This document shows positions 15,190 through 34,832 of a stretch of DNA of 64,000 bases, in pieces. This stretch comes from Bradyrhizobium sp. B124 (GTDB lineage: Bacteria; Pseudomonadota; Alphaproteobacteria; Rhizobiales; Xanthobacteraceae): positions 8,374,001 through 8,438,000 of the forward strand of contig NZ_CP152413.1 of assembly GCF_038967635.1 (NCBI RefSeq), given 5' to 3'. Position 1 is the first letter of the stretch. Each line of letters starts with the position of its first letter. The position numbers and the translations under genes are program-made. The notes under the pieces were generated by a model. The model made no database searches. It had not been told where the DNA came from and saw only the letters and a list, made by a program, of their open reading frames with translations.

Positions 15190-16494
15190 TTAGACGTGAA
15201 CTGCGGTGCGAACGCGGCCGACATTGCCGAACACGCGCAGATAGCGCTCGACTTCGGACGGGATGCCGGTCGCCTTCTCCGGATTGTCGGAGAGTTTGAC
15301 GGCCGGTCGGCCGTCGACCGACGTCACCTTGCACACGATCGAGATCGGGTCGAGCTCGGCGGTGCCGTCCGGCGCGCAGCCGACGAAATCGTTCGTGAGG
15401 TTGGTGCCCCAGCCGAAGCTGACGCGCACGCGTCCCTTGAAGTGATGGAACGTCTCCTCGATCGAGCCGACATCCATCGCGTCGGAGAACACCAGGAGCT
15501 TCTCCTTGGGGTCGCGGCCCTTCTGCTTCCACCACTTGATGATCTCTTCGCCGGCGGTGATCGGCGGCGCGCTGTCGGGACGAAAGCCGGTCCAGTCCGC
15601 GACCCAATCCGGTGCATCGCGGAGGAACGGCTTGGTGCCGAAGGCATCGGGCAGCGCGATCAGCAGGTTGCCGCCATAGGCGTGGCGCCATTGGTCGAGG
15701 ATCCGATAGGGCGCCCAGCGCAGCTCCTGGTCGTCGTCGGCGAGTGCCGCGGCGACCATCGGCAGCTCGTGCGCGTTGGTGCCGATCGCCTCTAGGTCGT
15801 TGTCCATCGCGAGCAGCACGTTCGACGTTCCGGTGAAGGACGGGCCGAGGCCTTCCTTCACCGCCTCGACGCACCAGCGCTGCCACAGGAAGCCGTGGCG
15901 GCGGCGCGTGCCGAAATCGGACAGCCGCAATCCGTCCAGCTTGCGCAGCCGCTCGACCTTGGCCCACAGCTTGGCCTTGGCGCGGGCGTAGAGCACGTCG
16001 AGCGCGAAGCGGCCGTAGGTCTTGGTCGCCGCGCGCGAGCGCAGTTCGTTGAGGATCGCGAGCGCCGGGATCTCCCACATCGTGGTGTGGGTCCACGGCC
16101 CGTGGAAATGCAGCTCATACTGGCCGTCGACCTTGTGCAGCTCGTATTCGGGCAGGCGGAAGGTCGAGAGCCAGTTGATGAAATCGGGCGAGAACATCTG
16201 GGTCTTGCCGTAGAACGTGTTGCCGGCGAGCCAGATCAGTTCCTTCTTGGTGAAGCGGATGGTGCGGGCGTGGTCGAGCTGGGCGCGCAGCTCGCCCTCG
16301 TCGATGACCTCGGCCAGCCGGATATGGGTCGAGCGGTTGATCACCGAAAAGGTCGTCTGCGTGTCCGGGTAGCATTCCCGGATCATCTGCATCATCAACA
16401 GCTTGTAGAAATCGGTGTCCAGCAGGCTGCGCACGATCGGATCGAGCCGCCAGCCGTGATTATAGGTCCGGGTTGCAATATCTGTGACCGCCAT
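15190..16494 (-). CDS. pncB: Nicotinate phosphoribosyltransferase
   Basis: 434 residues. The N-terminus [16 protein letters not shown] and FRLPEYEL are typical of PncB, followed by the [16 protein letters not shown] region, the conserved [10 protein letters not shown] phosphate-site loop, [10 protein letters not shown], and the C-terminal [19 protein letters not shown]. It converts nicotinate and PRPP to nicotinate mononucleotide in NAD salvage. It lies only 61 bp downstream of nicB on the same strand, so the salvage enzyme and the catabolic hydroxylase for the same substrate are neighbours and possibly co-transcribed. This supports nicotinate as the substrate of the cluster. Confidence 0.95.
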
Positions 16495-16555
16495 GCCGGA
16501 ACTGTAGCCTGCCGAACGGCGCCCGCCCAGTGGGTTTCGGGCGGAACATGGCAGG

Positions 16556-19500
16556 TCAGCGGGCTATATCCCGCCGGATACGGCCGACGGCTGTGGCAAC
16601 ATCGCTCCAGGCCGGCCTGCCCGGGGCGAATTGCTGCCGCAGGAAGCCGACGAGCTCGGCGACCTGGCCGTCGCTCATGCTGTCCTTGAAGGCCGGCATG
16701 TAGCCCAGATCGGTCACGGCCGGCTTGGCGATGCCGTGCAGGATCACCTGGATCAGATTGTCGGGGGCGTCGCTGTGCAAATTGCTGTTCAGCGCCAGCG
16801 ACGGCCGGCTGCCGAACAGCGGCGGGCCGCCGACCTCATGGCAGACGGCGCAGGCGCCCTGATAGATCCGCGCGCCCGCCGAGGCGGCGGTGGTCACGGC
16901 CGTGGCGGCTTCGAGCTCGGTAACCAGCGCATCGTGGGCGGGCCGATCGGCGGGCTCGTTGAACGAGGCGAGGTAGACCGCCATCGCGCGGATGTCCTGG
17001 TCGGGCAGCGCGGCGAGCTCCTGCACGACCGGCGCCATCGGTCCCGCGGCGACGCCATGCAGGCGGGACTCGCCGGTGCGCAGATAGGCGTAGAGCTCGT
17101 CCTCGCCCCAGGGGATCGGTGCCTTCGACAGCGACGTCAGCGCCGGTGCCTCCCAGCCCTCGGCGAAGCCGCCGGCGAGGTAGGCGCCTTGCCGCTCGGC
17201 GCCGAGCGCATTGCGCGGCGAGTGGCAGGCGCTGCAATGGCCGAGCCCCTCGACCAGATAGGCACCGCGATTCCAGATCGCCGATTTCGATGGATCGGGC
17301 TGGAACGAGTTCGGCTGGTGGAACAGCGCATTCCATCCTGCAAGCAGCGGCCGCAGGTTGAACGGAAAGGCCAGCGCGTTCGCCGGCGTCTCGGCGCGCA
17401 CCGGCGCCTGCACCATCAGATAGGCGTAGAGCGCCTGCCGGTCGGCATCACTGGTCTTGGCAAAATGCGTGTAGGGAAACGCCGGATAGAGATGGCGGCC
17501 GTCGCGATGAATGCCCTCGCGCATCGCGCGCTCGAACGCGGGATAGGACCAGGCGCCGATGCCGGTGTCGACATCGGGCGTGATGTTGGTCGTGTAGATC
17601 GTGCCGAACGGCGTCTCGAGCGGCCGGCCGCCGGCGTTCGCGATGCCATGCTCCGACGTATGGCAGACCGCGCAGGCGCCGAGCGCCGCGAGCTCCTTGC
17701 CGCGCGCGATCGTCGCGGCGGAATAGACCGAGGCATCGGGCCGGGCGATCGGTGCGATCGCGCGCCACGGCAGCACCGCCGCGCCGATTCCGATCGCCGC
17801 GGCGCAGAGCGCGGCAATGCCGGCGAGCACACCACCGCGCTTTACAAACGGATTTTGCCATCTGCTGAGGTCAGCCGCATGCGTGGGTGGTGCAAGCGGT
17901 ACGGGCGCCACGGGATGCTCGCCGCGCAAGCCCTTCAAAATGCGTTCCGGCGTGAACGGCGGCTCGCGAAAGCGCACGCCGGTCGCATCATAGATCGCAT
18001 TGGCGATCGCAGCGGCGCTCGGCACCGAGGCGGACTCGCCGACGCCGAGCGGCGGCTGGTCCTGCCGCGGCAGCATCAGCACATCGATCTCGGGCAGATC
18101 GGGGAATTTGATGATGGGATAGGCGCCCCATTCCCGCGCTGTGACAGCGCCGCGCTCGAACGAGACTTCTTCCATCAGCGCGCGGCTGGTCGACTGGATG
18201 ACATTGCCTTCGATCTGGTGCCGCACGCCCTCCGGATTGATCATCAGCCCGGAATCCTGGCCGGCGACGACGCGGGTCACGCTGACGTCGCCGGTCGCCT
18301 TGTTGACGGCGACGTCGGCGATCCATGCCGACCATGCCGCGCCGTAGCCGGGAAACTTGCTGTGTACGTAGAGCGCATAGGCAAAGCCGCGGCCGCGCAC
18401 GATATCGCCCTCGGCCTCGGGCTCCTGCCGCACCGGACGCGGCGTCCAGCCGGCGCGCTCGGCGACCGCGTTGACGAGGTCGATCGCGCGCTTATCCCTG
18501 AGATAGCGCAGCCGATATTCGATCGGATCGACCTCGGCCTCGGCGGCAAGCTCGTCGATATAGGATTCATGCGCGAACGTATTGGGCAGCGCCGAGACGC
18601 CGCGAAGCCATGAGGCGCGCACGATCGGCGGCATGTCGTTGGCGACGACGCGCATGTTCTCGTAGTCGTAGGGCGGGATCGCAGTGCGGTCGCCCATCTC
18701 GAACACGGCGGCTTCAGGTGCGATCCGCCCGGTGAGCAGCAGCGCCAGCGTAGGCGCGCCGTTGGAGGGATAGCGCGTGACGAAGTCGTAACCGGCGACG
18801 CTGCCATCGGCGTTGAGGCCGCCGTTGACATCCATCAGCTGCGCGGTGCCCTTCGGCTCCCACGCGTGTTCCTGCTCGCGGGTAAGCTGGACGCGCACAG
18901 GGCGGCCGACCGCGCGCGACAGCAGCAGCGCATCGGCGGAGACATCGTCGGCACAGTTGCGGCCGTAGCAGCCGGCGGCCTCCATCCTGACGATGTCGAT
19001 CTCGGATTCGGGCCGCTGAATTAGTAGCGCCAGATCGCCGCGCAGGATGTGCGGGTTCTGCGTGCCGGACCAGACCCGGATCGCTCCGTCTGCGTAATCG
19101 GCGACCGCGCAGGACGGGCCGATCGAGCCGTGCATCTGGTAGGGCCAGAGGTAGGTCCGTTGCATCGGCTTGGCCGCCGCCTTGATCGCGGCATCGACGT
19201 CGCCTCTGTCGATCAGCTGGCGCGGCGTCGAGGGATTGGCGCGCAGCGCCTTCTCGATGTCGGAAAGATCGGTCAGCGCCGGTCCCGGCTTCCAGCTCAC
19301 CTTGAGCTGCGCGGCGGCCTTGATCGCGTTCTCCTCGCGTTCGGCGACGACGCCGACGAAGTCACCGATCCGCACCACCGCGACGAGACCGGGGATGTCC
19401 CGCACCGAAGCTTCATCGACCGCGATCAGGCTGGTGCCGACGAACGGGCCGGCATCCACGCCGGCGTAGGGCGGCCGGACGACGCGGCCATGCAGCATGC

Positions 19501-20092
19501 CGGGCACGCGCACATCGTGGACATAGACCAGCTCGCCGGTGGCCTTCGCCGCCAGGTCGACGCGCGGCACCGACTTGCCGACGACGGAATAGGCGCTCAC
19601 GGCCTTGACGGGAACGTCGTCGGCGAGTTCGAGCCGGATGGTCTCATCCGCGATCAACTCGCCATAGCTGATGCTGCGGTTGTCGTGACCACGGATCAGG
19701 CCGTCCTCGATCGTGAGGTCGCCAGCCGGCAGTTCGAGCCGCTCCGCCGCGCGCGCGAGCAAAAAGTGCCGCGCCTGCGCGGCCGCCCTGCGCAGGGGAA
19801 TGGCGGTGATCTGGATGGTCTCGCTTGCGATCGTCGCGCCCTGGTTCGGCACCACGGCGGTGTCGCCGAGGATCACGACCACGCGGGCAAAGGAGACGTC
19901 GAGCTCTTCGGCGACGATCTGCCCGAGCGCGGTACGGATGCCGGTGCCGAGATCAACATGGCCGTTATAGGCACTGACCGAACCGTCTGATGTGATGGTG
20001 ACGAAGGTCTCGAACGCGCCTTCCGCGCCGAGCACCGCGGGGCGAACGACGGACAGCGAGCCGCGCATGCGTTGCTCCGAACCGGCCATCAA
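16556..20092 (-). CDS. nicB: Nicotinate dehydrogenase large subunit, molybdopterin and cytochrome c fusion (NicB-like)
   Basis: 1178 residues, close to NicB of Pseudomonas putida. The first ~750 residues are a molybdenum hydroxylase of the xanthine oxidase family, with [21 protein letters not shown] at the N-terminus and the catalytic Glu in [11 protein letters not shown] membrane segment ([22 protein letters not shown]) then leads to three c-type haem sites, CAVCH, CSACH and CAVCH. This layout lets electrons from hydroxylation pass to haem c and the respiratory chain instead of NAD. Predicted reaction: nicotinate to 6-hydroxynicotinate. It overlaps nicA by 4 bp. Other N-heterocycles or aldehydes are possible substrates, but pncB, hnr and ena nearby favour nicotinate. 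Confidence 0.85.
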
Positions 20093-20547
20093 TCGCGCGC
20101 CTCGAGCACGGCACGCATCGCTGCGCGGATGATTTCGATATGCGCGCCGCAGCGGCAGAGATTGTAGCGCAGCGCTTCCAGCACCTCATGCTCGGAAGGA
20201 TGGGGATTGCGCGTGAGCAGCGCCTTGGTGGTGATGATCATGCCGTTGAGGCAATAGCCGCACTGCGCGGCCTGTTCACGGATGAAGGCATCCTGCACCG
20301 GATCGGGATGCTCGCGGCTGCCAAGCCCTTCGAGCGTGACAATGTTGCGCCCGGTACAGCCTTCGATCGGAATCACGCAGGCGCGCGCGGCGACGCCGTC
20401 GATCAGCACCGCGCAGGCGCCGCACTCGCCGAGCCCGCAGCCGTATTTCGGTCCGTTCAATGCGAGATCGTTGCGCAGCACGTAAAGCAATGCGGTGTCG
20501 GGAGCGGCGTCGACATCATGATTCCTGCCGTTCACGGTCAGGCGCAT
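20089..20547 (-). CDS. nicA: Nicotinate dehydrogenase small subunit, 2Fe-2S (NicA-like)
   Basis: 152 residues from the ATG at 20547; the frame runs further upstream but only through the promoter region. Two [2Fe-2S] domains: the plant-type cluster Cys set in KYGCGLGECGACAVLIDG with a following Cys, and the helical second cluster in CGYCLNGMI..LCRCGAH. It passes electrons from the molybdenum site of NicB to its haems. The stop overlaps the NicB start by 4 bp (ATGA), giving translational coupling. Expression probably starts from the divergent promoter shared with the reductase gene, near the palindrome 63 bp upstream. Confidence 0.9.
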   Translation of the reverse strand: MRLTVNGRNHDVDAAPDTALLYVLRNDLALNGPKYGCGLGECGACAVLIDGVAARACVIPIEGCTGRNIVTLEGLGSREHPDPVQDAFIREQAAQCGYCLNGMIITTKALLTRNPHPSEHEVLEALRYNLCRCGAHIEIIRAAMRAVLEARD

Positions 20548-20610
20548 CGCTCCGGTTCTCCCCTGATGTTTGCGCTGCAATGTCAGCGTCAAATCCGCCG
20601 ATGAGGATAA

Positions 20611-20626
20611 CGTTTGTATACAAACG
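20611..20626. promoter_or_regulatory. GTATAC palindrome, candidate operator for nicAB
   Basis: Perfect 16-bp palindrome CGTTTGTATACAAACG, 63 bp upstream of the nicA start. The same core occurs at 20745, 33968 and 33982, always in front of a nicotinate-locus gene. The likely ligand is the NicR-like MarR protein encoded at 28704; a GntR-type regulator outside the window is the alternative, since TNGTATACNA-like sites suit that family too. Confidence 0.7.
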
Positions 20627-20715
20627 TGCAAGCGGCGGCATGCCGCGCTGCAGCGCGTGCACGCTTTATGAACAGGGTGCGCAAGCGAATGGCAGCGTTT
20701 GATTGCAAAGGCCGC

Positions 20716-20824: not shown

Positions 20825-22273
20825 ATGGCTGACACAATGACCGTCGCCGCCGGCGACAAGATCCGCTGCGATGCCTGTCCGGTGATGTGCTACATCAAGC
20901 CGGGCGCGGCCGGCGCGTGTGACCGTTATGCCAATCACGACGGCACGCTGGTGCGGGTCGATCCGCATGTCGTGCTGGAGCGCACGGTCTCGCACGGCGG
21001 CAAGCTGGTTCCGTTCCAGGCGAGCGGCGACTGGGACGGCAAGATCGTCCGTCAGCCCGAACTCTTCGTCACCGCGATCGGCGCCGGAACCACTTATCCG
21101 GACTACAAGCCGGCGCCCTTCATCGTGTCGTCGGAGGTCGACGGCGTCGACATGATCACCGTGGTGACCGAGGGCATTTTCTCCTATTGCGGCGTCAAGG
21201 TGAAGATCGACACCGACCGCTATCTCGGTCCGGAAACCGCTGTTGTCCGCGCCGACGGCGAGGCGGTTGGTCATGTCACGACCAGCGAATATGGCTCGCA
21301 GATGCTCTCGCTCGGCGGCGTGCATCATCTGACCGGCGGCTCCAAGAAAGAGGGCCGCGTCACCTGCGATACGCTGATGGATCTCTCCAACTGCAAGGCA
21401 GTGGAGCTGACCATCGACGGCGGCGCGACCGTGGTGGTGCAGGCGGGCAAGCCGCCGATCGTCAATGGCATGGCCGAAGAGCGGATGCGGGTCGGCTGCG
21501 GCTCGGCGACCATCGGCATGTTCGCCAAGCAGTGGCACGGCAAGGTCGACGAGGTCGTGGTGGTCGACGACCACATCACTGGGGTGCTCAGCGAGCACCA
21601 GGCCGGCAAGCTGCTCGACATCGCCGACACCGGCATCAAGATGAAGGGGCGCCGTTCGACGCCGGGCCGCTACTTCCAGGTCGCCGATCCCGGCACGGGA
21701 TGGGGCGGTACCAACATCTCCGACCCGCTGTCGATCCTGGGTCCCTTCAATGCCAAGGAAGCACGGCCGGGGCTCGCCATGCTGATGGTCTCGACCACCG
21801 GCGAGCATGCTTCTTACTACGTGCTCGACGAGGCGCTGAAGCCGATCGAGACCGAGATGCCGGCGGACCTGAAATTCTCGGTCGAGCGCATCCAGGAGAA
21901 TTGCGAGCCGGCGCTGTGCACGGTGCTGTTCATGGGCGGCGCCGGCGGCTCGCTGCGCGCCGGCGTCACCGACAATCCGGTGCGGCTGACCCGCTCGGTC
22001 AAGGACGCGCTGACTCGGGTGACCAGCGGCGGCGCGCCGGTCTATGTCTGGCCGGGCGGTGGCATCACCTTCATGGTCGATGTCACGCAGATGCCGGCCG
22101 GCGCCTTTGGCTATGTGCCGACCCCGGCGCTGGTGGCGCCGATCGAATTCACGATGAAGCTGTCGGACTATGCGGCGCTCGGCGGCCATATGGATTTTGT
22201 CCGGCCGCTGTCGTCGCTGCGGGACAGCGCCGAAGTCCGGCCGATGCCTCATCTTCCCGGGCGGCGCGCATGA
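20825..22273 (+). CDS. hnr: 6-hydroxynicotinate reductase-like iron-sulfur flavoprotein
   Basis: 482 residues from the ATG at 20825 (a TTG at 20816 is in frame but less likely). The N-terminus holds a cysteine set C15-x2-C18-x3-C22-x9-C32 (CDACPVMCYIKPG) suited to a 4Fe-4S cluster. The remainder has no common domain but matches the family annotated as 6-hydroxynicotinate reductase, with VYVWPGGGITFMVDV and GYVPTPALVAPIEFTM near the C-terminus. In Eubacterium barkeri this enzyme reduces 6-hydroxynicotinate to 6-oxo-1,4,5,6-tetrahydronicotinate using ferredoxin. It is the first gene of a forward operon that includes the transporter and is divergent from nicAB, which would make its substrate. 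Confidence is raised by the enamidase gene, the next pathway step, at 32.7 kb. Confidence 0.75.
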   Translation: MADTMTVAAGDKIRCDACPVMCYIKPGAAGACDRYANHDGTLVRVDPHVVLERTVSHGGKLVPFQASGDWDGKIVRQPELFVTAIGAGTTYPDYKPAPFIVSSEVDGVDMITVVTEGIFSYCGVKVKIDTDRYLGPETAVVRADGEAVGHVTTSEYGSQMLSLGGVHHLTGGSKKEGRVTCDTLMDLSNCKAVELTIDGGATVVVQAGKPPIVNGMAEERMRVGCGSATIGMFAKQWHGKVDEVVVVDDHITGVLSEHQAGKLLDIADTGIKMKGRRSTPGRYFQVADPGTGWGGTNISDPLSILGPFNAKEARPGLAMLMVSTTGEHASYYVLDEALKPIETEMPADLKFSVERIQENCEPALCTVLFMGGAGGSLRAGVTDNPVRLTRSVKDALTRVTSGGAPVYVWPGGGITFMVDVTQMPAGAFGYVPTPALVAPIEFTMKLSDYAALGGHMDFVRPLSSLRDSAEVRPMPHLPGRRA

Positions 22274-23280
22274 CGAGAGCGTTTTCCAGCGAAGTGGATA
22301 CCGGTTCGCGCAAAGAAAACGCGTCAAAACTAGAATCTAGAGCCCCGTTCCGATTCAATCGGAACGGAAAAGGCTCTAGGCTCCCGCAAATCGCGCTTCT
22401 TCCTGACGGCAAGCGGCTGCATTTGCAGGACGGCCCGATTGATCTGGTCATCGAGGCCAAGGGCAGGGACGCGGACGTCGGTGCCGCCTATCAGGCGGCC
22501 GCAGGGCGCTTCACCGGTTTGCTCGACGAACTCTGCGTGGAGCTCGCCGAGCTGCGCAGCGCGGCTCATCCGAAGCACAGCGCGCTGAAAGGCGTGGTCG
22601 CGCGGCGCATGCATGCGGCGGTCGCGCCGTTTGCCGCCGATTGCTTCATCACGCCGATGGCGGCAGTCGCGGGCTCGGTCGCCGAGGAAATCCTCGGCGC
22701 GATGCTGCAGGCGGCAGCGCTCGACCGCGCCTATGTCAACAATGGCGGCGATATCGCGCTGCATCTGTTTGACGGCGAGCAATTCACCGTCGGCCTGATG
22801 GACCGGCCGGACCGCCATGGCGTGATGCGCACGATGTCCGTCGATAGCGACATGCCGGTCCGCGGCATCGCGACCAGCGGCCGCCATGGCCGCAGCTTCT
22901 CGCTCGGGATTGCCGATGCCGTCACCGTGCTGGCGCGGACGGCGTCGCAGGCGGATGCCGCGGCGACCGTGATCGCCAATGCGGTCGATCTGCCCAACCA
23001 TCCTGCGGTGCTGCGCGTTCCGGCCAGCGAGCTGCAGCCGGACAGCGACCTCGGGTCACGGCTGGTGACCCGCGACGTCGGGCCGCTCGCGGAACATGAG
23101 ATCGAGCTTGCGCTGGAGGCAGGGGCAGCGCGGGTGCGCGACCTCCTGACGTCGGGATTGATCGAAGGCGCGGCATTGCGTCTACTGGGCGAAACGCGAA
23201 TTGTCGGTGCAACTGGGAACGGGACGCCGGCGTCGCACACGTTTCAGGGACGAACGACAGACAACATGCTGCAGGCATGA
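22270..23280 (+). CDS. UPF0280 family protein (ApbE-like), with repeat-encoded N-terminal segment
   Basis: 336 residues. The ATG overlaps the stop of the reductase gene by 4 bp (ATGA). After three codons the frame passes through a ~102-bp dispersed repeat, which adds about 34 residues. The conserved part then starts at LPQIALLPDGKRLHLQDGPIDLVIEA, followed by AAVAPFAADCFITPMAAVAGSVAEEIL and NNGGDIALHL, as in UPF0280 proteins. These are related to ApbE FAD:protein FMN transferases; the NNGGDIA segment corresponds to their NxGGD motif. An internal GTG at 22294, inside the repeat, is an alternative start. The tight coupling suggests a role in maturing or assisting the reductase, perhaps covalent flavin attachment. 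Confidence 0.75.
   Translation: MTRAFSSEVDTGSRKENASKLESRAPFRFNRNGKGSRLPQIALLPDGKRLHLQDGPIDLVIEAKGRDADVGAAYQAAAGRFTGLLDELCVELAELRSAAHPKHSALKGVVARRMHAAVAPFAADCFITPMAAVAGSVAEEILGAMLQAAALDRAYVNNGGDIALHLFDGEQFTVGLMDRPDRHGVMRTMSVDSDMPVRGIATSGRHGRSFSLGIADAVTVLARTASQADAAATVIANAVDLPNHPAVLRVPASELQPDSDLGSRLVTRDVGPLAEHEIELALEAGAARVRDLLTSGLIEGAALRLLGETRIVGATGNGTPASHTFQGRTTDNMLQA
22278..22379. repeat. Dispersed repeat, family 4 (copy 2), inside a coding frame
   Basis: Matches 7161-7252: AGCGAAGTGGATACCGGTTC, then AAAGAAAACGCGTCAAAACT, then a 3' hairpin with arms CTAGAGCC and GGCTCTAG around GTTCCGATTCAATCGGAAC. It is 102 bp long (34 codons) and contains no stop in the frame of the host gene. Confidence 0.85.
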
Positions 23281-23296
23281 CCGGGAGCGAGGCAAG

Positions 23297-23881
23297 ATGA
23301 GCGCCGTCATTCGCAAGATCGTCACCGTGGTCGAGGAGACCCATCTGGAGATGGGCAAGACCATCGCACCGCCGACCCGGCGCGCTGCCGCGATCGCCGT
23401 GATCGAAAATCCCTTTGCCGGCCGCTATGTCGAGGATCTGTCGCCGCTGATCGCGATCGGCGAGGAACTCGGCGAATTGCTTTCCAAGCGGGCGGTCGCC
23501 GCGCTCGGCATCGACGGCGCCAAGGCGCACAGTTACGGCAAGGCCGCCGCCGTCGGCGAAAATGGCGAGCTCGAGCACGCGGCAGCGATCTTGCATCCGA
23601 AGATGGGCGCACCGGTGCGCAAGGTGCTCTCGAAGGGCGCGGCGCTGATCCCGTCGTCGAAGAAGCGCTCGGGTCCCGGCACCACGCTGGACATTCCGCT
23701 CGGGCACAAGGACGCCGCCTTCGTGCGCAGCCATTTCGACGGCATGGAGGTGCAGATCAACGACGCGCCGCGGGCCAACGAGATCATGGTCGCGGTCGCG
23801 GTGACCGACAGCGGACGGCCGCTGCCCCGCGTCGGCGGGCTGACGGTTGACGAGGTCAAGGGCGAAGACGGATTGCGATAA
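23297..23881 (+). CDS. DUF1185 / amino acid synthesis family protein (PF06684)
   Basis: 194 residues from the ATG at 23297 with a GGCAAG box; 16 bp after the UPF0280 gene. N-terminus IRKIVTVVEETHLEMGKTIAPPTRRAAAIAVIENPFAGRYVEDLSPL, then KAHSYGKAAAVGENGELEHAAAILHPKMGAPVR and the C-terminal VAVAVTDSGRPLPRVGG are typical of PF06684. Solved structures of this family show a variant of the chorismate mutase fold with no assigned reaction. Its position between UPF0280 and the solute-binding protein ties it to nicotinate use, perhaps acting on a ring-opened or cyclic amide intermediate. That role is a guess from context. Confidence 0.8.
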   Translation: MSAVIRKIVTVVEETHLEMGKTIAPPTRRAAAIAVIENPFAGRYVEDLSPLIAIGEELGELLSKRAVAALGIDGAKAHSYGKAAAVGENGELEHAAAILHPKMGAPVRKVLSKGAALIPSSKKRSGPGTTLDIPLGHKDAAFVRSHFDGMEVQINDAPRANEIMVAVAVTDSGRPLPRVGGLTVDEVKGEDGLR

Positions 23882-27198: not shown

Positions 27199-27986
27199 GC
27201 ATGGTTCCCACATTGCTGTCGGTCGAGGGGCTGACCAAATCCTATGGCGGCGTGCACGCCGTGCGCGGTGTCTCGTTTGAACTGCGCGCCGGTGAGATCC
27301 TGGCGCTGATCGGACCGAACGGCGCGGGCAAGAGCACCTGCTTCGACATGCTCAACGGCCAGAACATTCCCGATAGCGGCCGCATCCGCGTGCTGGGTGC
27401 GGAGACCACCGGCAAGAAACCGCGCGTGATCTGGCGGATGGGCGTCGGCCGCACCTTCCAGATCGCGGCGACCTTCCCGACCATGACGGTGCGCGAGAAC
27501 GTGCAGGTCGCGCTGGTCTCGCATGGTGGGCAATTGTTCAACCTGTGGGCCTCGACCGCGCGTCAGGCACGCGACGAGGCCGGGCGGCTGCTCGATCTGG
27601 TCGGCATGGGCGCCTATGCGGAGCGGCCCTGCGGCGAGCTCGCCTATGGCGATGTCAAGCGGCTGGAGCTTGCGATCGCGCTCGCCAACCAGCCGAAACT
27701 GCTGCTGATGGACGAGCCGACCGCCGGCATGGCGCCGCGCGAGCGCGTCGAGCTGATGCGGCTGACGGCGCGGATCGCCCGCGAGCAATCGATCGGCGTG
27801 CTGTTCACCGAGCACGACATGGACGTGGTGTTCGAGCATGCCGACCGCATCCTGGTGCTCAACCGCGGTAGCCTGATCGCCGAAGGCTCGCCCGAGGAAG
27901 TGCGCGGCAATGCCCAGGTGCGGGCGATCTACCTCGGCGAAGGCCTCCTCTACGACGCCCGGCACCGCGAGGGAGCATCGGCATGA
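27195..27986 (+). CDS. ABC transporter ATP-binding protein, LivG type
   Basis: 263 residues. Walker A GPNGAGKST, a Q-loop in RTFQIAATFPTMTVRENV, an ABC signature replaced by ELAYGDVKRLELA, Walker B LLLMDEPTAGMAP and the switch His in FTEHDMDVVFEHADR. The LAYG..R signature is normal for LivG. It begins inside the stop codon of the permease gene (ATGA overlap) and ends overlapping LivF by 4 bp. It powers uptake by the transporter of the nicotinate locus. Confidence 0.9.
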   Translation: MSMVPTLLSVEGLTKSYGGVHAVRGVSFELRAGEILALIGPNGAGKSTCFDMLNGQNIPDSGRIRVLGAETTGKKPRVIWRMGVGRTFQIAATFPTMTVRENVQVALVSHGGQLFNLWASTARQARDEAGRLLDLVGMGAYAERPCGELAYGDVKRLELAIALANQPKLLLMDEPTAGMAPRERVELMRLTARIAREQSIGVLFTEHDMDVVFEHADRILVLNRGSLIAEGSPEEVRGNAQVRAIYLGEGLLYDARHREGASA

Positions 27987-28687
27987 AGCTTACGGTGAAG
28001 GACCTCAACAGCTTCTATGGTCCGGCGCATATCCTGTTCGACATCGCGCTCGAGGTCGGCGAGGGCGAAGTGGTCGCATTGCTCGGGCGCAACGGCGCCG
28101 GCAAGTCGACCACGTTTCGCTCCATCGTCGGCCTGGTCGAGAACCGCTCGGGCCGCGTCATGTTCGAGGGGAGGGACGTCTCGGAGCTGCCGACGCACGC
28201 GATCGTGCGCGGCGGGCTCGGCTACGTGCCGGAGGAGCGGCGCATCTTCACCGACTTGACGGTCGAGGAGAATCTCGAGGTCGGCCGCCAGCCGAAGCGG
28301 CCGGGCGCGCCGCAATGGGATCGCGAAAAACTGTTCAAGCTGTTTCCCAATCTCGGCGAGATGCGCGGCCGGCCCGGCGGGCGCATGAGCGGCGGCGAGC
28401 AGCAGATGCTGACGATCGCGCGCACGCTGATGGGCAATCCGTCGCTGGTGCTGCTCGACGAGCCCTCGGAAGGTCTGTCGCCCAAGATCGTCGAGCAGAT
28501 GGTCGACGCGATCCTGGCGATGAAGAAAGAGGGCGTCAGCATCGTCGTCTCAGAGCAGAATCTGCATTTCGCCCGGCTGATCTCGGATCGCGCCTACATC
28601 ATCGAGCGCGGCCGGATCTGTTTTGGCGGCACCATGGCGGAACTCGATGCGCGTCCGGATGTCCGCGACGCACATCTGTCGCTGTAA
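27983..28687 (+). CDS. ABC transporter ATP-binding protein, LivF type
   Basis: 234 residues. Walker A GRNGAGKST, Q-loop/early region GLGYVPEERRIFTDLTVEENLEVG, signature RMSGGEQQMLTIARTLM, Walker B LVLLDEPSEGLSP and the switch region VVSEQNLHFARLISDRAYIIERG. LivF-type proteins carry Gln/Asn near the switch position (EQN), as seen here. Partner of the LivG protein just upstream. A MarR regulator follows after 16 bp in the same direction. Confidence 0.9.
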   Translation: MKLTVKDLNSFYGPAHILFDIALEVGEGEVVALLGRNGAGKSTTFRSIVGLVENRSGRVMFEGRDVSELPTHAIVRGGLGYVPEERRIFTDLTVEENLEVGRQPKRPGAPQWDREKLFKLFPNLGEMRGRPGGRMSGGEQQMLTIARTLMGNPSLVLLDEPSEGLSPKIVEQMVDAILAMKKEGVSIVVSEQNLHFARLISDRAYIIERGRICFGGTMAELDARPDVRDAHLSL

Positions 28688-28703: not shown

Positions 28704-29159
28704 ATGGCGAGGAGTGCTGCACAGAAGCGAAGCGTCAAGGCGGCCAAGCCCGGTTACGTGCTCGATGACCAGATCGGCTTCATCCTGCGCCAGGTATCGC
28801 AGCGTCACGCCGTGATCTTCGCCCGCGAGATCGGCATCAACCTGACCCCGACGCAATGGGCGGCGCTGTCGAAGTTGTCGGAGGTCGGGCCGTGCTCGCA
28901 GAACCAGCTCGGGCGGCTCACCTCGATGGATGTTGCGACCATCAAGGGCGTGATCGATCGCCTGACCGCGCGCGGCCTGACCGAGACCTCGCCCGATCCC
29001 GACGACGGCCGCCGGCTGATGGTGAGCCTGACGCGTGCCGGCCAGCAGATGGCCGACAAGGCCGCGCCGAATGCGCTCGTGATTTCCAGGGAGACGCTGG
29101 CCCCGCTGGACGCCAAGGAGCGCGAGACGCTGATGGCGCTGCTCGGCAGGCTTCGCTGA
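28704..29159 (+). CDS. MarR-family regulator (NicR-like)
   Basis: 151 residues. The body LDDQIGFILRQVSQRHAVIFARE, LTPTQWAALSKLSEVGPCSQNQLGRLTSMDVATIKGVIDRLTARGLTETSPDPDDGRRLMVSLT has the winged-helix recognition region and the DPDDGRR wing of MarR proteins. This pattern resembles NicR of Pseudomonas putida, which represses nicotinate genes and is released by 6-hydroxynicotinate. It is the last gene of the hnr-transporter operon, so it would be under its own control. The palindromes at 20611, 20745, 33968 and 33982 are its likely targets. Confidence is high for the family, moderate for the NicR role. Confidence 0.85.
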   Translation: MARSAAQKRSVKAAKPGYVLDDQIGFILRQVSQRHAVIFAREIGINLTPTQWAALSKLSEVGPCSQNQLGRLTSMDVATIKGVIDRLTARGLTETSPDPDDGRRLMVSLTRAGQQMADKAAPNALVISRETLAPLDAKERETLMALLGRLR

Positions 29160-29167
29160 CCTTACCT

Positions 29168-29322: not shown

Positions 29323-29353
29323 ATGAAGAAAGTGCTACCGTGTCGCATCCGGA

Positions 29354-30022
29354 CTATGTCGCAACACCAAGCACCAGCGCGACGGCGCCGACCAGCACCA
29401 GGCTGACGGCCCAAACCGTGTCCAGATTGAACCAGCTCCGGGCCACGAATTTGAGGCCGAGGTATCGGTAGACCAGCCATGCCAGACATCCGCCGGCGGC
29501 GATCATTGCGCCGGCATGGACGATGGAAACCAGCACGGCCATCGTGAGGCTGGTGTCGATCAGGGAGCTGGCGGCGGCGTGGCCTTGGTCCGGCTCAGCC
29601 TCGCGGCATAGTCCGAGATAGATCGGCACCAGCATCAGCGCCGCGCCGTGGGCGATCGCCACCGCGAACGACCACAAAGCGAGTTGCGTCGGTGGTATCC
29701 GCGCCAGGGCCCGCGGATGGCGCCGGTCGATCAGCCGATAGATGCCGAAGGCGATCACAAGCAGGCTGGCGCCGATCCGGATCGTGCGCTGCCATTCGAC
29801 GAGGGTGATCAGCAGCGCAAAGGGAAGGATCACGAGCAGCATCGCCAGCAGGTGACCGATTGCGAGCGGGCCAAGCGCGGCCAGCAGCGCGCGGGAACTC
29901 CTCTCCATCAATCCGGCCGAAACCGCGAGCGGCCAGCCCATGCCCGGGTTGATCCCGTGGTAGAGGCCGCTCGCAATCACCGCCAGCCACAGCGAGGCCG
30001 CTGTCCAGTCGGCTGCACTCAC
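29354..30022 (-). CDS. Multi-pass membrane protein of unknown function beside SBP56
   Basis: 222 residues with about six hydrophobic helices. The N-terminus LWLAVIASGLYHGINPGMGWPLAV carries a His-Gly-x-Asn-Pro-Gly motif, and further on are GPLAIGHLLAMLLVILP and AVAIAHGAALMLVPIYLGL. Conserved His residues inside membrane segments recall metal or small-molecule carriers of the UreH/NiCoT type, but no family is assigned. It begins two bases after the SBP56 stop, so the two form an operon. It could move a metal (SBP56 needs copper in other species) or a sulfur product. Confidence 0.7.
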   Translation of the reverse strand: MSAADWTAASLWLAVIASGLYHGINPGMGWPLAVSAGLMERSSRALLAALGPLAIGHLLAMLLVILPFALLITLVEWQRTIRIGASLLVIAFGIYRLIDRRHPRALARIPPTQLALWSFAVAIAHGAALMLVPIYLGLCREAEPDQGHAAASSLIDTSLTMAVLVSIVHAGAMIAAGGCLAWLVYRYLGLKFVARSWFNLDTVWAVSLVLVGAVALVLGVAT

Positions 30023-30024
30023 AT

Positions 30025-31425
30025 TCAGGCCGATGGATAACAGAACGAATCCGTCGAGCAGTCGCCGCCGTCGAGCCGGATCTGGTGCGCGCGGTACCCG
30101 TCGGGGAGGCTGACCCAGTAGTCCTTTGCCAGTTCAAGCCCGCCGCCCGGGCTGGCATTCGCCATCACCTCGGCGCCGGGAATGCCTTGCGGATAGAACT
30201 GGTCGTCCCAGGTCGAGTAAAGCGAGTTGGTCCAGTAGACCCGCTTGCCGTCGCGGCTGATCTCGACCATCTGCGGACCGCCGGCAAATGCCTGTCCGTT
30301 GAGATGCGGCGTGCGGCGGGTGATTCCGCCGATGCGCACCGATCCGGCGAGCTTCGGCTTGTGCGGATCGCTGACATCGTATTGGCGCATCTCGCCGGTG
30401 GCCCAGCAGGAGACGTAAAGGAATTTGTCGTCCATCGACAGGTCGATGTCGGTCACCAGCGGCGGCACGGCGCCGAAACCCTGCAGCAGTGGCGGCAGCT
30501 GCTCCTTCGGCGCGGGTTCGGGTGGGATCGTCGCCGTCTTCTCGATGTGAAACTTGCCGCCCTCGCGCCACCAGGTCCAGATCGAGCCTTCGAGGTTTGT
30601 GGTATCGACCACGACGCCGACGAAGCCGTATTCGCGAACCGGATCGTGTGCGGGACGCACTTCCAGCGCCATCTGATGGTTGGCGCCGAGATCGATGGTC
30701 TGCACATTGCGTCGCGCCCGCAGATCCCAGAAGTGGATGCGATGGCCGTATTTGTTCGAGAGCAGGTCCTCCGGCACGATGCCGTTCTCGAACTGCGGCG
30801 GCAGCGCCCATTCGCTGCTCACCATGTAGTCGCGCGGCAGGTTCCACCAGAAGTCATAGTGCTTGGTCTGGGGACCGCGATCGATCTCCCAGCGTCCGAG
30901 CACCTCGAAGGTCTCGCAGTCCATGATGAAGACGCCGGGCGGTCCATCGGTGCCGTCCTTGCCGCCGCCGCCGAGCGTAGAGACGTAGATGCCGTCCGGG
31001 CCGCAGTGGATGGTATGCGGCCGCGAATAGCCGGTCTTCCTGAAGACCTCCTCGGGCTCGATGATCTTGTGGATCCTGGCCTGCGTCGGATCCGGCTTGG
31101 TGTCGATGATGTAGATCCGCGACGACCGCATGCCGGGAACGATGAGATAGCGGCGTTCGATGAAGGCATGTCCCGCAAGCGGGGACAATGCCGAGGAACA
31201 TGCGTTCCAGCCGAAATGGTGAAACTCGTCGCCCTTGTTGGGCATCGTCACGGTGTGGACGATCTTGCTGTAGGTCGGCGAGCCCGGCTTGACGTCGATG
31301 ACGGCGAGCGCGTCCGGCTTGGAAAAGTCCGGGCTGAGCAGCACGGTATAGGCGAAGTTCTCGGCCGGAGCTTCCATCGCAAGCTTCGGCGACGCGTGAA
31401 ACGTGGGATCTGGCCTCATCGTCAT
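30025..31425 (-). CDS. mtoX: Selenium-binding protein 56 family, methanethiol oxidase
   Basis: 466 residues, the size of SBP56/MtoX. The N-terminus FHASPKLAMEAPAENFAYTVLLSPD, then GDEFHHFGWNACSSAL, YLIVPGMRSSRIYIIDTKPDP, RPHTIHCGPDGIYVSTLGG, and the C-terminal half (THLNGQ-like PHLNGQAFAGGPQMVEISRDGKRVYWTNSLYS) follow the family. Bacterial members oxidise methanethiol to formaldehyde, hydrogen sulfide and peroxide, using copper, normally in the periplasm. No signal peptide is visible here, so it may be cytoplasmic. Co-transcribed with the membrane protein downstream. Confidence 0.85.
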   Translation of the reverse strand: MTMRPDPTFHASPKLAMEAPAENFAYTVLLSPDFSKPDALAVIDVKPGSPTYSKIVHTVTMPNKGDEFHHFGWNACSSALSPLAGHAFIERRYLIVPGMRSSRIYIIDTKPDPTQARIHKIIEPEEVFRKTGYSRPHTIHCGPDGIYVSTLGGGGKDGTDGPPGVFIMDCETFEVLGRWEIDRGPQTKHYDFWWNLPRDYMVSSEWALPPQFENGIVPEDLLSNKYGHRIHFWDLRARRNVQTIDLGANHQMALEVRPAHDPVREYGFVGVVVDTTNLEGSIWTWWREGGKFHIEKTATIPPEPAPKEQLPPLLQGFGAVPPLVTDIDLSMDDKFLYVSCWATGEMRQYDVSDPHKPKLAGSVRIGGITRRTPHLNGQAFAGGPQMVEISRDGKRVYWTNSLYSTWDDQFYPQGIPGAEVMANASPGGGLELAKDYWVSLPDGYRAHQIRLDGGDCSTDSFCYPSA

Positions 31426-31646
31426 CGTGCTGCCTCCTGTTTGCTGGTGTGGACCAACGGCACGGCGGCATGCGGCAGGAACTTAATCGTCGCGTGGCTC
31501 TTGCGAGCGCCGCCGGCTACGTTCGCGTGGCGGCACGATACACCTCAATGATGACGGGTGGAAACAAGGTTCGGTTACGGAGGCGGCGCGGCAAAGACGC
31601 GCGGTGCTTTACAGTTCCCTACGGACCAATCTCGCCGTCACCCTGA
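31426..31646. other. Gap upstream of mtoX
   Basis: No gene. Contains an AGGAGG-type box for mtoX (reverse of CTGCCTCCTG at 31431-31440) and, at its right end, the start of the palindromic repeat (CCGTCACCCTGA) into which the IS element inserted. Confidence 0.5.
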
Positions 31647-32581
31647 GAGCCTGACTGATAAATGGGGGTGAGTGATCCCAGCGAGGTGTGATTCCATCGG
31701 ATTTGCAAAGATTCGAAGGAGATCACGATGCCCTGGACTGAAATCACTCGAAAGCAATATCGGCGGGACGACCTGCGTTATGCAAGCGATATGACAGATG
31801 CGGAATGGAGGCTGATCAGGCGCCTTCTGCCGCGAGCACACCGGCGTGGCCGACCGCGCCGAACCGATCTTCGTAGTGTTGTGGAGGCGGTTCTCTACAT
31901 TCTATCGACAGGATGCCAGTGGCGGGCACTGCCGCAGGAGTTCCCACCCTATTCGACGGTGCAGGGTTATTTTTACGCGTGGCGAGATACGGGTCGATGG
32001 CAGAAGATCGCCAGCGTTCTTGTTCAGCGGGCGCGAAAAAAGCTGGGACGTGCTTCAAAGCCGACAGCTGCCGTGATCGACAGCCAAAGTGCGCCGACCA
32101 CGCAGGCCGGCGGGCCTCGTGGCTACGACGCGGGGAAGCGCATCTACGGCCGCAAGCGGCACATTGTGACCGACACCAATGGCCTGCTCCTCGGAGTTCA
32201 TGTGCATCCGGCCAACGTCCAGGACTGCCATGGTGCGGTACCGTTGCTGAAGATGGTACGGACGCAATTCCCTCGGCTGGGACACGTTTTTGCCGATCGG
32301 ATCTATCGTGGGAAGCAGCTTCTCGACGCCCTCTCGGACTGCGGTCCATGGACCATCGAGATCGTCGAGCGGCCTCAAGGCGTCAAAGGCTTCCAGCTGC
32401 TGCCGCGACGATGGGTTGTTGAACGGACATTCGCTTGGTTCGGCAGATGTCGACGTCTCGCCAAGGACTTCGAGGCCGCCACAGCCACCGAAGTCGCATG
32501 GTTACTCCTCGCCCACATCAGGCTCCTGACCCGCAGACTTGCCGCCGCTCATAGCGATTGACGGCATTATGAGTCAGACTC
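31647..32581 (+). mobile_element. IS5-family insertion sequence, copy 1 (935 bp)
   Basis: Terminal inverted repeats GAGCCTGACTGATAAATG at the left and GAGTCTGACTCATAATGC (read inward) at the right. Flanked by a 3-bp TGA duplication (31644-31646 and 32582-32584). It carries one transposase gene. By eye it is identical to the copy at 55652-56586 except for one base seen at 32408 (A here, C at 56413), which is silent. A TNA duplication fits the IS1031-like branch of IS5. Confidence 0.95.
31728..32561 (+). CDS. IS5-family transposase, copy 1
   Basis: 277 residues in one uninterrupted frame with a GAAGGAG box in front. N-terminal helix-turn-helix region (SDMTDAEWRLIRRLLP..HRRGRPRRTDLR), then the DDE catalytic core: Asp in AAVIDSQSAPTT followed by GYDAGKRIYGRKRHIVTDTNG, a second Asp in HVFADRIYRG and the Glu region RWVVERTFAWFGRCRRLAKDFE. 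The Y-2-R-3-E spacing in the last segment is typical of IS4/IS5 transposases. Apparently intact and active in sequence. Confidence 0.95.
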   Translation: MPWTEITRKQYRRDDLRYASDMTDAEWRLIRRLLPRAHRRGRPRRTDLRSVVEAVLYILSTGCQWRALPQEFPPYSTVQGYFYAWRDTGRWQKIASVLVQRARKKLGRASKPTAAVIDSQSAPTTQAGGPRGYDAGKRIYGRKRHIVTDTNGLLLGVHVHPANVQDCHGAVPLLKMVRTQFPRLGHVFADRIYRGKQLLDALSDCGPWTIEIVERPQGVKGFQLLPRRWVVERTFAWFGRCRRLAKDFEAATATEVAWLLLAHIRLLTRRLAAAHSD

Positions 32582-32678
32582 TGAGGAGGTCGCGAAGCGA
32601 CCGTCTCGAAGGGGCGACGGCCCGGCTGGCGGCCGTGCATCCTTCGAGGCTCGCTTCGCGAGCGCCTCAGGATGACGG
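32582..32678. repeat. Dispersed palindromic repeat, family 8 (copy A, split by IS copy 1)
   Basis: Starts left of the IS as CCGTCACCCTGA (31635-31646) and resumes here as GGAGGTCGCGAAGCG, TCTCGAAGGGGCGACGGCCC, CATCCTTCGAGGCTCGC, ending CCTCAGGATGACGG. The end arms CCGTCA.CCTGAGG and CCTCAGGATGACGG are inverted copies. Other copies at 55558 and 56680. Confidence 0.9.
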
Positions 32679-32693
32679 GTCATCTGTCGTAAC

Positions 32694-33890
32694 CTACTTC
32701 GCCACGATCTCCGGCACCTTGCCTGCGGGCGGTGTGTTGCGGCTGCGCTGGGTGCGGACGATGCCGTCGATGATGGTCATGCCGATGCCCGGGAGATCGC
32801 CGAGCTGAACGCTCTCCAGGATGTTCTTGCCCGGCGAATGCTGCGCCTTGTCCATCAGCACGAAATCGGCGGAACGGCCGACCTCGATCAGGCCGCAATC
32901 GAGCTCGCGCATCCGGGCGGTGTTGCCGGTCGCAAGGCAGAACGCCAGCTCGGCCGGCAGCTCGCCGAGCGAGGACAACAGCGAAACCATGCGCAGGATG
33001 CCGAGCGGCTGCACGCCGGAGCCGGCCGGCGCATCGGTGCCGAGGATGACGCGATGCAGATCGCCCATCTCGCGCGCGATGCGCAGCGTGAACAGCGCCG
33101 AGCGCTCATTGCCGTTGTGCACCAGCTCGAGCCCGCGTTTGCAGCCCTCACAGATGCAGCGGATCTGGTCGTCGGGAAGGGCGGTGTGGCCGCCATTGAT
33201 GTGGCCGACCACGTCGGTGTCGGCTTCCAGCACCACGTCCTTGTCGATCAGGCCGGAACCGGGGATCGAAGGACCGCCGGTGTGGATCGTGCTCTGAATG
33301 CCGTATTTGCGCGCCCAGCCGACCATTTTCCGCGCCGTCGGCCCGTCCTTCACACCACCTAGCCCGACCTCGCCGAGCAGCTTGACGCCGGCGGCGGCCA
33401 TTTCCTTGAAGTCGTCCTCCACCATCTCGCACTCGATCACGGGCGCGCCGGCATGCACCTTCACGCCGCCTGGCCGCAGCGTCCAGAATGCGCGCTGCGC
33501 GAAGATCGCCATCGCCTTCAACCCGACCACGTCGCGCGGCCGGCCGGGCATATGCACTTCGCCGGCGGAGATCATGGTGGTGACGCCGCCATGCAGATAG
33601 CTGTCGATCCAGTTGGTCTGGTTCTGCCGCGGCGTCCAGTCGCCGGCGACGGGATGGACGTGGCTGTCGATCAGGCCGGGCGCGACCGTCGTGCCGTTGG
33701 CATCGACGATGGTGGTGGCGCCTTCGGTGTCGACGTCCTTGAAGCGGCCGATCGCTGTGATCCTGCCGTTCTCGGCGACGATGGTATCGGCGTCCAGGAT
33801 CGGCCTCTCCAGGGCTCCCGACAGCAGTAGCCCGATATTGCGGATCACCAGCTTGCTGGGGCCGGTGGCCTGGGGCGCGTCGTGAGCCAT
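32694..33890 (-). CDS. ena: Enamidase-like amidohydrolase
   Basis: 398 residues. The metal-binding H77-x-H79 lies in PGLIDSHVHP, followed by HGGVTTMISAGEVHMPGRPRD, the GEVGLGG carboxylate, STIHTGG and VVGHINGG histidines, and the active-site Asp in LGTDAPAGSGVQPLGILR. The N-terminus (IRNIGLLLSGALERPILDADTIV) and RSRNTPPAGK at the end match enamidase of Eubacterium barkeri very closely. That enzyme hydrolyses 6-oxo-1,4,5,6-tetrahydronicotinate to 2-formylglutarate and ammonia, the step after 6-hydroxynicotinate reductase. It is divergent from a ferredoxin-NADP reductase, and the shared promoter has the same palindrome as nicAB/hnr. Confidence 0.85.
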   Translation of the reverse strand: MAHDAPQATGPSKLVIRNIGLLLSGALERPILDADTIVAENGRITAIGRFKDVDTEGATTIVDANGTTVAPGLIDSHVHPVAGDWTPRQNQTNWIDSYLHGGVTTMISAGEVHMPGRPRDVVGLKAMAIFAQRAFWTLRPGGVKVHAGAPVIECEMVEDDFKEMAAAGVKLLGEVGLGGVKDGPTARKMVGWARKYGIQSTIHTGGPSIPGSGLIDKDVVLEADTDVVGHINGGHTALPDDQIRCICEGCKRGLELVHNGNERSALFTLRIAREMGDLHRVILGTDAPAGSGVQPLGILRMVSLLSSLGELPAELAFCLATGNTARMRELDCGLIEVGRSADFVLMDKAQHSPGKNILESVQLGDLPGIGMTIIDGIVRTQRSRNTPPAGKVPEIVAK

Positions 33891-33935
33891 GGGTGTTTTC
33901 CTTTTTTCTTTCCGAAATTACCCGGGAATTTGAGC

Positions 33936-33961
33936 CCGGCTTGACTTTTCGATCAAGCCGG
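33936..33961. promoter_or_regulatory. Inverted repeat between ena and its operators
   Basis: Perfect 9-bp arms CCGGCTTGA and TCAAGCCGG with an 8-base loop, 46 bp upstream of the ena start. It includes the candidate -35 box TTGACT of the fpr promoter (TTGACT, 17 bp, TATTCG). It would be a hairpin in the ena leader or a second operator. No match known. Confidence 0.4.
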
Positions 33962-33967
33962 ATTATT

Positions 33968-33997
33968 CGTTTGTATACGAATGATCGTATACAAACG
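33968..33997. promoter_or_regulatory. Tandem GTATAC operators between ena and fpr
   Basis: Two overlapping 16-bp sites, CGTTTGTATACGAATG (33968-33983) and TGATCGTATACAAACG (33982-33997), with centres 14 bp apart, so on nearly the same DNA face. One is 77 bp from the ena start, the other 61 bp from the fpr start. They match the sites at 20611 and 20745. Confidence 0.75.
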
Positions 33998-34058
33998 ATC
34001 CGGCCGGTCAACTGGTTCAGGCCCTTGCCCGCCGCAGCACAAATCGGGGATTGGTGCG

Positions 34059-34832
34059 ATGAGCAATTTCAACCAGGAAAGCGTCCTCAGCGTTCATCAC
34101 TGGACCGACACGCTGTTCTCCTTCAAAACCACACGCAATCCGTCGTTCCGCTTCCGCAACGGCGAGTTCACCATGATCGGGCTCAAGGTCGGCGAGAAGC
34201 CGCTGCTGCGGGCCTACAGCGTCGCCAGCGCGAATTATGAGGACACGCTCGAGTTCTTCTCGATCAAGGTTCCGGACGGCCCGCTGACCTCGCGCCTCCA
34301 GCACCTGAAGGAAGGCGACGAGATCATCGTCAGCCGCAAGGCCACCGGCACGCTGGTCATCGACAACCTCGAGGACGGCCGCAACCTCTATCTGATCGGC
34401 ACCGGCACGGGGCTTGCGCCGTTCCTCAGCGTGATCAAGGATCCCGAGACCTATGACCGCTTCGAGAAGGTCGTGCTGCTGCACGGCTGCCGCCGCGTCA
34501 AGGAGCTCGCCTATGGCGAGATGATCACCGAGAAACTGCCGCAGGACGAACTGATCGGCGATCTTGTGCGCGACCAGCTGATCTACTACCCGACCGTGAC
34601 CCGCGATCCGTTCCACAACCGCGGCCGCATCACCGACCTCATCACCTCGGGCAAGCTGTTCGCCGACATCGGCCTGCCGGCGCTCGATGCCGCACATGAC
34701 CGCGTCATGATCTGCGGCTCGCCGGCGCTGGTCGCCGACACCCGCACGCTGCTGGGCGGCCGCGGCTTCGTCGAGGGCAATCACGGCGAGCCCGCGCAGT
34801 TCGTGGTGGAGAAGGCGTTCGCCGAGCGGTAA
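34059..34832 (+). CDS. fpr: Ferredoxin/flavodoxin-NADP reductase (FPR type)
   Basis: 257 residues from the ATG at 34059. FAD-binding RAYSVASANYEDTLEFFSIKVPDGPLTSRLQHL and the NADP-binding domain with LYLIGTGTGLAPFLSVI, VLLHGCRRVKELAY, MICGSPAL and the C-terminal NHGEPAQFVVEKAFAER are those of subclass II bacterial Fpr, ending in an aromatic-acidic tail typical of the family. It links NADPH to ferredoxin. Here it is divergent from enamidase under the shared palindromic operators, which suggests it supplies reduced ferredoxin for 6-hydroxynicotinate reductase. The housekeeping role of Fpr cannot be excluded. Confidence 0.9.
   Translation: MSNFNQESVLSVHHWTDTLFSFKTTRNPSFRFRNGEFTMIGLKVGEKPLLRAYSVASANYEDTLEFFSIKVPDGPLTSRLQHLKEGDEIIVSRKATGTLVIDNLEDGRNLYLIGTGTGLAPFLSVIKDPETYDRFEKVVLLHGCRRVKELAYGEMITEKLPQDELIGDLVRDQLIYYPTVTRDPFHNRGRITDLITSGKLFADIGLPALDAAHDRVMICGSPALVADTRTLLGGRGFVEGNHGEPAQFVVEKAFAER

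Follow-up and report, generated by a model that had tools for sequence, protein, structure and literature searches.

The breakdown of nicotinate by bacteria has reportedly been studied in Pseudomonas putida, whose nic cluster is said to have been the subject of work by Jimenez in 2008, in Eubacterium barkeri, whose nicotinate fermentation is attributed to Alhapel in 2006, and in Azorhizobium, for which Kitts et al. are said to have treated a nicotinate pathway in 1992. In this study, a window of 64 kb from Bradyrhizobium sp. B124 was analysed (the whole stretch, positions 8374001-8438000 of a 9.17-Mb single-contig genome). With a probability of about 0.87, genes found between positions 15190 and 34832 of this window form an Azorhizobium-type catabolic cluster for nicotinate, in which an aerobic molybdenum (Mo) hydroxylase would feed a reductive, hydrolytic route. 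At the centre of the cluster are hnr, assigned as the gene for 6-hydroxynicotinate reductase (Hnr), and a gene of the family UPF0280 that overlaps its end.

The available text of PMC3511419 describes such a cluster in Azorhizobium caulinodans ORS571, in Bradyrhizobium japonicum USDA110 (blr3818-blr3830, by the Fig. 4 legend and the text), in Rhodopseudomonas palustris HaA2 and in strain SG-6C. The same cluster and the so-called THON route are proposed there for SG-6C, which grows on nicotinate and degrades it, 6-hydroxynicotinate appearing transiently on the way. PMC9304392 likewise cites the route of Azorhizobium and E. barkeri. As far as these texts go, the locus studied here shares with the four clusters the genes of the three initial steps (an hnr homologue among them), an ABC transporter, two "conserved unknown" proteins and the THON route; we infer that the two proteins are UPF0280 and DUF1185. 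Judged by the published description rather than by a comparison of gene order, it differs in having an IS5 element, a gene for a 56-kDa selenium-binding protein (SBP56) and ORF222 between marR and the enamidase gene ena, and in carrying a repeat inside UPF0280. Thus, the cluster is an already described one: an earlier note on this DNA was right about the pathway, which remains the best-supported reading, but not about its novelty, as the gene set it called poorly described is in PMC3511419. What is new is the near-exceptionless co-occurrence of UPF0280 with hnr and, as a side lead, a HyuA/HyuB pair in place of the enamidase at hnr loci; no report of either was found in the literature searched, which did not cover subscription papers.

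Compared to the fermentation of E. barkeri, the locus shares the steps of Hnr and enamidase (Ena), the latter being homologous over nearly its full length. However, the hydroxylase here is linked to cytochrome c, and the window shows none of the fermentative steps beyond 2-formylglutarate: no hydroxymethylglutarate dehydrogenase, dehydratase, B12 mutase, isomerase or aldolase was recognised among the window open reading frames (ORFs) scanned, a search that did not extend to the genome. Compared to the nic cluster of P. putida, the locus shares a NicAB-type hydroxylase and a MarR-type regulator, but ring opening would be hydrolytic instead of being catalysed by a dioxygenase, and no NicC/NicX-like family was found among the same ORFs.

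The enzyme that would open the ring is encoded by ena (32694-33890, minus strand). Its product aligned with the E. barkeri enamidase, entry 2vun of the Protein Data Bank (PDB), over residues 12-395 of 398, with 365 bits and an E value of 4.9e-108, while the next PDB chain reached at most 29 bits and the hydantoinase among the listed chains 26.5 bits. On this comparison of sequences the enamidase identity is firm, the earlier note having spoken of a close enamidase homologue, and the best characterised match is not an enzyme of another ring system. The Mo hydroxylase would consist of a NicB-like protein (16556-20092, minus strand), in which the molybdopterin subunit with MoCoBD_1/2 domains is fused to a triheme cytochrome c, and of a NicA-like subunit for two [2Fe-2S] clusters (about 20089-20547, minus strand; Fer2 and Fer2_2), the start of which was set at the methionine preceding RLTVNGR. 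NicB matched both a cytochrome-linked aldehyde dehydrogenase (8gy3) and the E. barkeri nicotinate dehydrogenase (3hrd), and its cytochrome c part contains three CxxCH motifs at residues 807, 953 and 1081, through whose c hemes the hydroxylase is probably linked to respiration.

The assignment of hnr (20825-22273, plus strand) rests on annotated relatives, on invariant cysteines and on a published homologue. "6-Hydroxynicotinate reductase" is the annotated name in 17 of the 26 plasmid records that hold a relative with 66-74% identity, the remaining nine being given as "hypothetical protein", without a name or without annotation. Two alignments, of 15 and of 46 rows, show cysteines 18, 21, 25, 35, 228 and 363 (counted from 20816) to be invariant. 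According to the available text of PMC3511419, the reductase homologue of SG-6C, a related member of the Bradyrhizobiaceae, is 42% identical to the E. barkeri Hnr, and the enzyme is mentioned by name in the accessible part of PMC12472160.

The distribution of these genes showed that their linkage goes far beyond chance, the earlier note having placed them in one region. At least 594 hnr loci were returned when species representatives were scanned with a pattern, and the best 80 were taken for counts of neighbouring genes (best match at E <= 1e-8, with more than 30% of the query covered); the flanks often stop at contig ends, so that the counts are lower bounds, and the matches to the ATPases and the permease may include unrelated importers. 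UPF0280 was found in 77 of the 80 loci, DUF1185 in 72, a NicA-like protein in 69 (47 at 50% identity or more), MarR in 55, the permease and each ATPase in 54, the binding protein in 53, NicB in 49, the enamidase in 42, ferredoxin-NADP reductase in 31, PncB in 17 and SBP56 in 5. Bradyrhizobium accounts for 33 of these best relatives, including the eight nearest with 91-97% identity, and hnr is present in all nine further genomes of the genus, in 74 of the 297 sampled from the order and in 32 of the 398 sampled from the phylum. What the data show are gene identities, linkage and conservation. Upstream of hnr in many loci outside Bradyrhizobium lies a different hydroxylase, in which the Fe-S and Mo parts are fused into one subunit and a smaller subunit, annotated on the plasmids as FAD-binding or subunit M, is encoded separately. 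A gene for the alpha subunit of a Rieske ring-hydroxylating dioxygenase stands beside the hnr cluster in four loci (L129, L131, L170 and L176); as a guess, this could be an N-demethylase that yields nicotinate from trigonelline.

From these genes, the following pathway would be expected in the strain. Nicotinate would be brought in by the branched-chain-type ABC importer and converted by NicAB to 6-hydroxynicotinate, with the c hemes handing the electrons on to the respiratory chain. Hnr would then reduce the ring to 1,4,5,6-tetrahydro-6-oxonicotinate, drawing electrons from NADPH through ferredoxin-NADP reductase and ferredoxin. This electron route is suggested because fnr adjoins ena, is a neighbour of hnr or the enamidase gene on plasmids and is present in 31 of the 80 loci; it lies beside hnr or ena in all three annotated plasmid loci examined, three of the 26 matches. 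Hydrolytic ring opening by Ena would give 2-formylglutarate and ammonium, and loss of CO2 followed by oxidation would lead to glutarate and on to central metabolism. The MarR protein, responding to its presumed ligand, would regulate the gene set, while PncB would divert nicotinate to NAD. An aldehyde dehydrogenase of the SSADH type, above the curated cut-off elsewhere in the genome, fits the route and proves nothing.

UPF0280 (22270-23280, plus strand), which overlaps the hnr stop codon, is nearly always found together with hnr. It was found in 72 and hnr in 74 of the 297 genomes, and both occur together in 71; the matched UPF0280 stretch holds a stop in two genomes (G245 and G274). Of the three genomes with hnr and no UPF0280, two (G183 and G224) have only a partial hnr match, situated at the edge of a contig, and in the third (G120) the contig ends 187 bp past hnr; UPF0280 without hnr occurs in G185 alone. 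Fisher's test gives 1e-63 for this association, a value that assumes independent genomes, which these are not. In 66 of the 71 genomes UPF0280 comes after hnr in the same orientation and at most 1.5 kb away, with a median of 100 bp between the matched ends, and in the other five it is on another contig (three), 228 kb off (one) or 8 kb upstream (one). The retention of UPF0280 with hnr in these five genomes, in which the two are not adjacent, speaks against mere operon order. Three of the 80 loci, L090, L092 and L115, have no UPF0280, the contig of L092 stopping 193 bp past hnr, and in L095 UPF0280 stands 8 kb from hnr. Its presence with hnr when the genes are apart or when the enamidase is lacking indicates that it tracks hnr and not the whole cluster.

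The predicted structure of UPF0280 (pLDDT 86.7) points to the ApbE fold. In a Foldseek search, the best match of the model was 2o34, a Desulfovibrio protein (E 9.2e-11), after which came FmnB, Ftp and ApbE, with E values from 2.5e-5 to 1e-3; the TM-scores against ApbE/Ftp structures are modest, about 0.3-0.45. A profile match to ApbE (E 2e-5, probability 77%) aligned the ADA...T motif, which is the metal site of ApbE, and A228, D229 and T233 of UPF0280, which align with this ADA, are invariant in 42 sequences. ApbE further carries its catalytic histidine on an H-x-x-D-P-x-T-G loop and modifies proteins with the target motif [ST]GA[ST]. In UPF0280, unlike the ApbE/Ftp flavin transferases with which it shares the fold and the ADA...T motif, the D-P-x-T-G loop is a gap in the profile alignment, and the target motif is found in none of 46 Hnr sequences. 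The loop histidine itself is present in six of the nine ApbE sequences used, the other three, including that of this genome, keeping D-P without it. A role as a plain ApbE flavin transferase was therefore rejected, for want of both loop and target. Canonical ApbE (PF02424) went unmatched in three of the nine further genomes of the genus.

The missing ApbE loop in UPF0280, together with the missing target motif in Hnr, suggests that UPF0280 serves as an accessory factor of Hnr, which we consider likely. A more specific proposal is offered tentatively, as something that may well prove otherwise: UPF0280 would be a dedicated and near-obligate factor for the maturation or cofactor loading of Hnr, an enzyme that in E. 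barkeri binds a flavin covalently and has several Fe-S clusters, with a chemistry other than that of ApbE, and the ring-opening step after Hnr would be interchangeable between Ena and HyuA/HyuB.

The case for such an exchange comes from genomes in which the enamidase is lacking. The enamidase is present at 60% identity or more in 43 of the 74 hnr genomes and not in the other 31, three of which (G004, G020 and G245) hold an enamidase of 41-42% identity. When one hnr locus was taken from each of these 31 genomes, 18 contained both HyuA and HyuB, one had a single member of the pair, and 12 lacked both; six of these 12 span 18-20 kb and six are shorter. As these loci were picked for lacking a close enamidase, only the unselected 80 bear on mutual exclusion; there, Ena occurs in 42, HyuA/B in two, both in none and neither in 36. 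HyuA/B is present at one of the three annotated plasmid loci, and an enamidase of 70-72% identity at the other two. On a tree of Hnr from 113 of 114 loci, the HyuA/B state needs eight changes, at least six of them forced by well-supported branches, which indicates that it has switched more than once; the tree is a quick one with SH-aLRT support only, and loci cut short were scored as "none". The loci that combine hnr-UPF0280 with a HyuA/HyuB oxoprolinase pair and have no enamidase in the stretch are L132, L133, L135, L138, L153-L155, L159-L161, L164, L166, L168-L170, L173, L176, L177, L124, L125 and L129, and they possibly represent a second ring-opening route. Conversely, Ena and DUF1185 occur without hnr in the stretch at L136 (genome G099, with no hnr match) and L137 (genome G087, with hnr elsewhere). 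Genes resembling nucleoside hydrolase and isochorismatase, judged by eye on the translations, lie nearby, and these two loci perhaps belong to a pathway not yet described in which the same enzyme opens the ring.

DUF1185 (23297-23881, plus strand; PF06684, AA_synth, E 1.8e-74; PDB 2qtp and 3byq) follows UPF0280 and belongs to the B type of two paralogues, A-type copies being 43-51% and B-type copies 69-88% identical to the window protein. Two matches were found in 30 of the 80 loci (adjacent in 29), one in 42 and none in eight. Bradyrhizobium loci have one B-type copy and a Sagittula plasmid locus has two copies. Of the 20 HyuA/B loci of both sets, 15 hold just one copy (42-56% identity), four (L124, L125, L170 and L176) hold two, and one has none. 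The B type thus tends to go with Ena and the A type with Hnr, though not strictly. A role as the missing 2-formylglutarate decarboxylase was considered and found no evidence. The structure paper (PMC2954203), in its available portion, suggests only amino-acid metabolism for DUF1185.

The remaining genes are arranged as follows. On the minus strand, pncB, nicB and nicA lie at one end of 15190-34832 and ena near the other. On the plus strand, hnr, UPF0280, DUF1185, the four-gene importer and marR are followed by ORF222, sbp56 and IS5, and then come ena and the divergent fnr. The genes that the earlier note had named were all recovered at or near the places it gave them; its span of 15190-34832 does hold the cluster, but it also takes in ORF222, SBP56 and IS5 (29354-32582), which are bystanders. 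The importer comprises a substrate-binding protein (23910-25124, Peripla_BP_6), a fused LivH-LivM-type permease (25309-27198, two BPD_transp_2 stretches) and two ATPases (27201-27986, ABC_tran and BCA_ABC_TP_C; 27983-28687, ABC_tran), all on the plus strand. The permease unites both domains in one protein of about 630 residues, and in the three annotated plasmid clusters the permease is likewise encoded by one gene, of similar length. The MarR-family regulator (28704-29159, plus strand) matched PF01047 and PDB 2nnn (E 5.2e-48). The ferredoxin-NADP reductase gene (33981-34832, plus strand, start possibly at 34059) matched PF00175/PF00970 and resembles PRK10926, below the cut-off of that model. 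The salvage gene pncB, for nicotinate phosphoribosyltransferase (15190-16494, minus strand; PF04095/PF17767, TIGR01514 above cut-off), is loosely linked. Outside the cluster, a second Mo hydroxylase pair was seen at 38320-40560 and 40541-40990; the surrounding region (36081-40990) also encodes a cytochrome c (36549-36998), a flavoprotein and a SoxY-related protein with the family name "SoxY-related AACIE arm".

Two insertions are present in the locus. The IS5-family element between sbp56 and ena (31646-32582, plus strand; NF033580 above cut-off) has inverted ends AGAG(C/T)CTGACT and a second copy at 55651-56587, with one mismatch in 937 bp. The other is a dispersed repeat of 102 bp (22274-22375, plus strand) directly after the UPF0280 start codon, where it adds 34 codons and is missing in all four aligned relatives. 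At least 40 genome matches of about 90 bases or more were found for it, the window copy included, when 40 of 186 candidates were scored, and six other copies from a protein-level search also lie within open frames. Palindromic elements that insert into genes resemble this repeat in behaviour.

Several observations weigh against a nicotinate pathway for this cluster. At the cut-offs used, Hnr has no relative in Pfam or NCBIfam (both at E 0.001) or in the PDB; with neither a solved relative nor a curated family, its activity rests on homology and context. No gene was identified for the decarboxylation of 2-formylglutarate to glutarate semialdehyde, and the lack of NicC/NicX-like Pfam families holds for the window ORFs scanned, the rest of the genome not having been searched. 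Furthermore, a close enamidase is missing from 31 of the 74 genomes with hnr, so that hnr alone is no proof of the exact route. The cluster might thus act on another ring, such as hydantoin, barbiturate, 5-oxoproline or another pyridone, with enzymes related to those for nicotinate. The replacement of Ena by HyuA/HyuB, a hydantoinase/oxoprolinase pair, at related hnr loci would fit this idea, as would Ena and DUF1185 beside other genes at loci without hnr and the six genomes that have Ena at 60% identity or more and no hnr. However, the ring opener of the window is an enamidase by a score that no other listed PDB chain approaches, and no HyuA/B family was found among the window ORFs scanned, which makes another ring very unlikely. 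The cluster could also be a silenced remnant, considering that one IS5 end is 111 bp from the ena stop codon and that the repeat sits at the UPF0280 start. Yet the reading frames are open, IS5 occupies the sbp56-ena gap past the 3' end of ena, and the 34 codons of the repeat are in frame and upstream of all conserved UPF0280 residues. The view of IS5 or the repeat as inactivating events is thus unsupported, and silencing is most unlikely.

For UPF0280, the alternative is that it serves the cluster in some other way and follows hnr through operon order only. COG2122, which we take to be the same family as UPF0280, has been linked to sulfur metabolism. The accessible text of PMC5764234 reports that COG2122, together with DUF39 and a NIL/ferredoxin protein, is needed for homocysteine synthesis in D. 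vulgaris, and that its homology to ApbE seemingly stops short of the flavin-binding region; COG2122 is termed a sulfur trafficking protein in M. acetivorans in the available part of PMC12068725. A role in sulfur trafficking, as proposed for methanogens, is accordingly conceivable but less likely than not here, given that UPF0280 accompanies hnr even in the five genomes where it is not directly downstream and stays with it where the enamidase is missing.

As a nicotinate cluster, the locus represents a described gene set that exists in many copies, with the reductase gene in about a quarter of the sampled genomes of the order. Its analysis leaves one testable lead, the pairing of UPF0280 with Hnr, and one side lead, the replacement of the enamidase by HyuA/HyuB, which points to a second way to open the same or a similar reduced ring. 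UPF0280/COG2122 is a family without an agreed biochemical role, and its tie to a single enzyme open to production and assay makes that role testable. If the proposal is true, COG2122 would assist reductive enzymes in aerobes as an accessory family, in addition to its part in sulfur assimilation in anaerobes.

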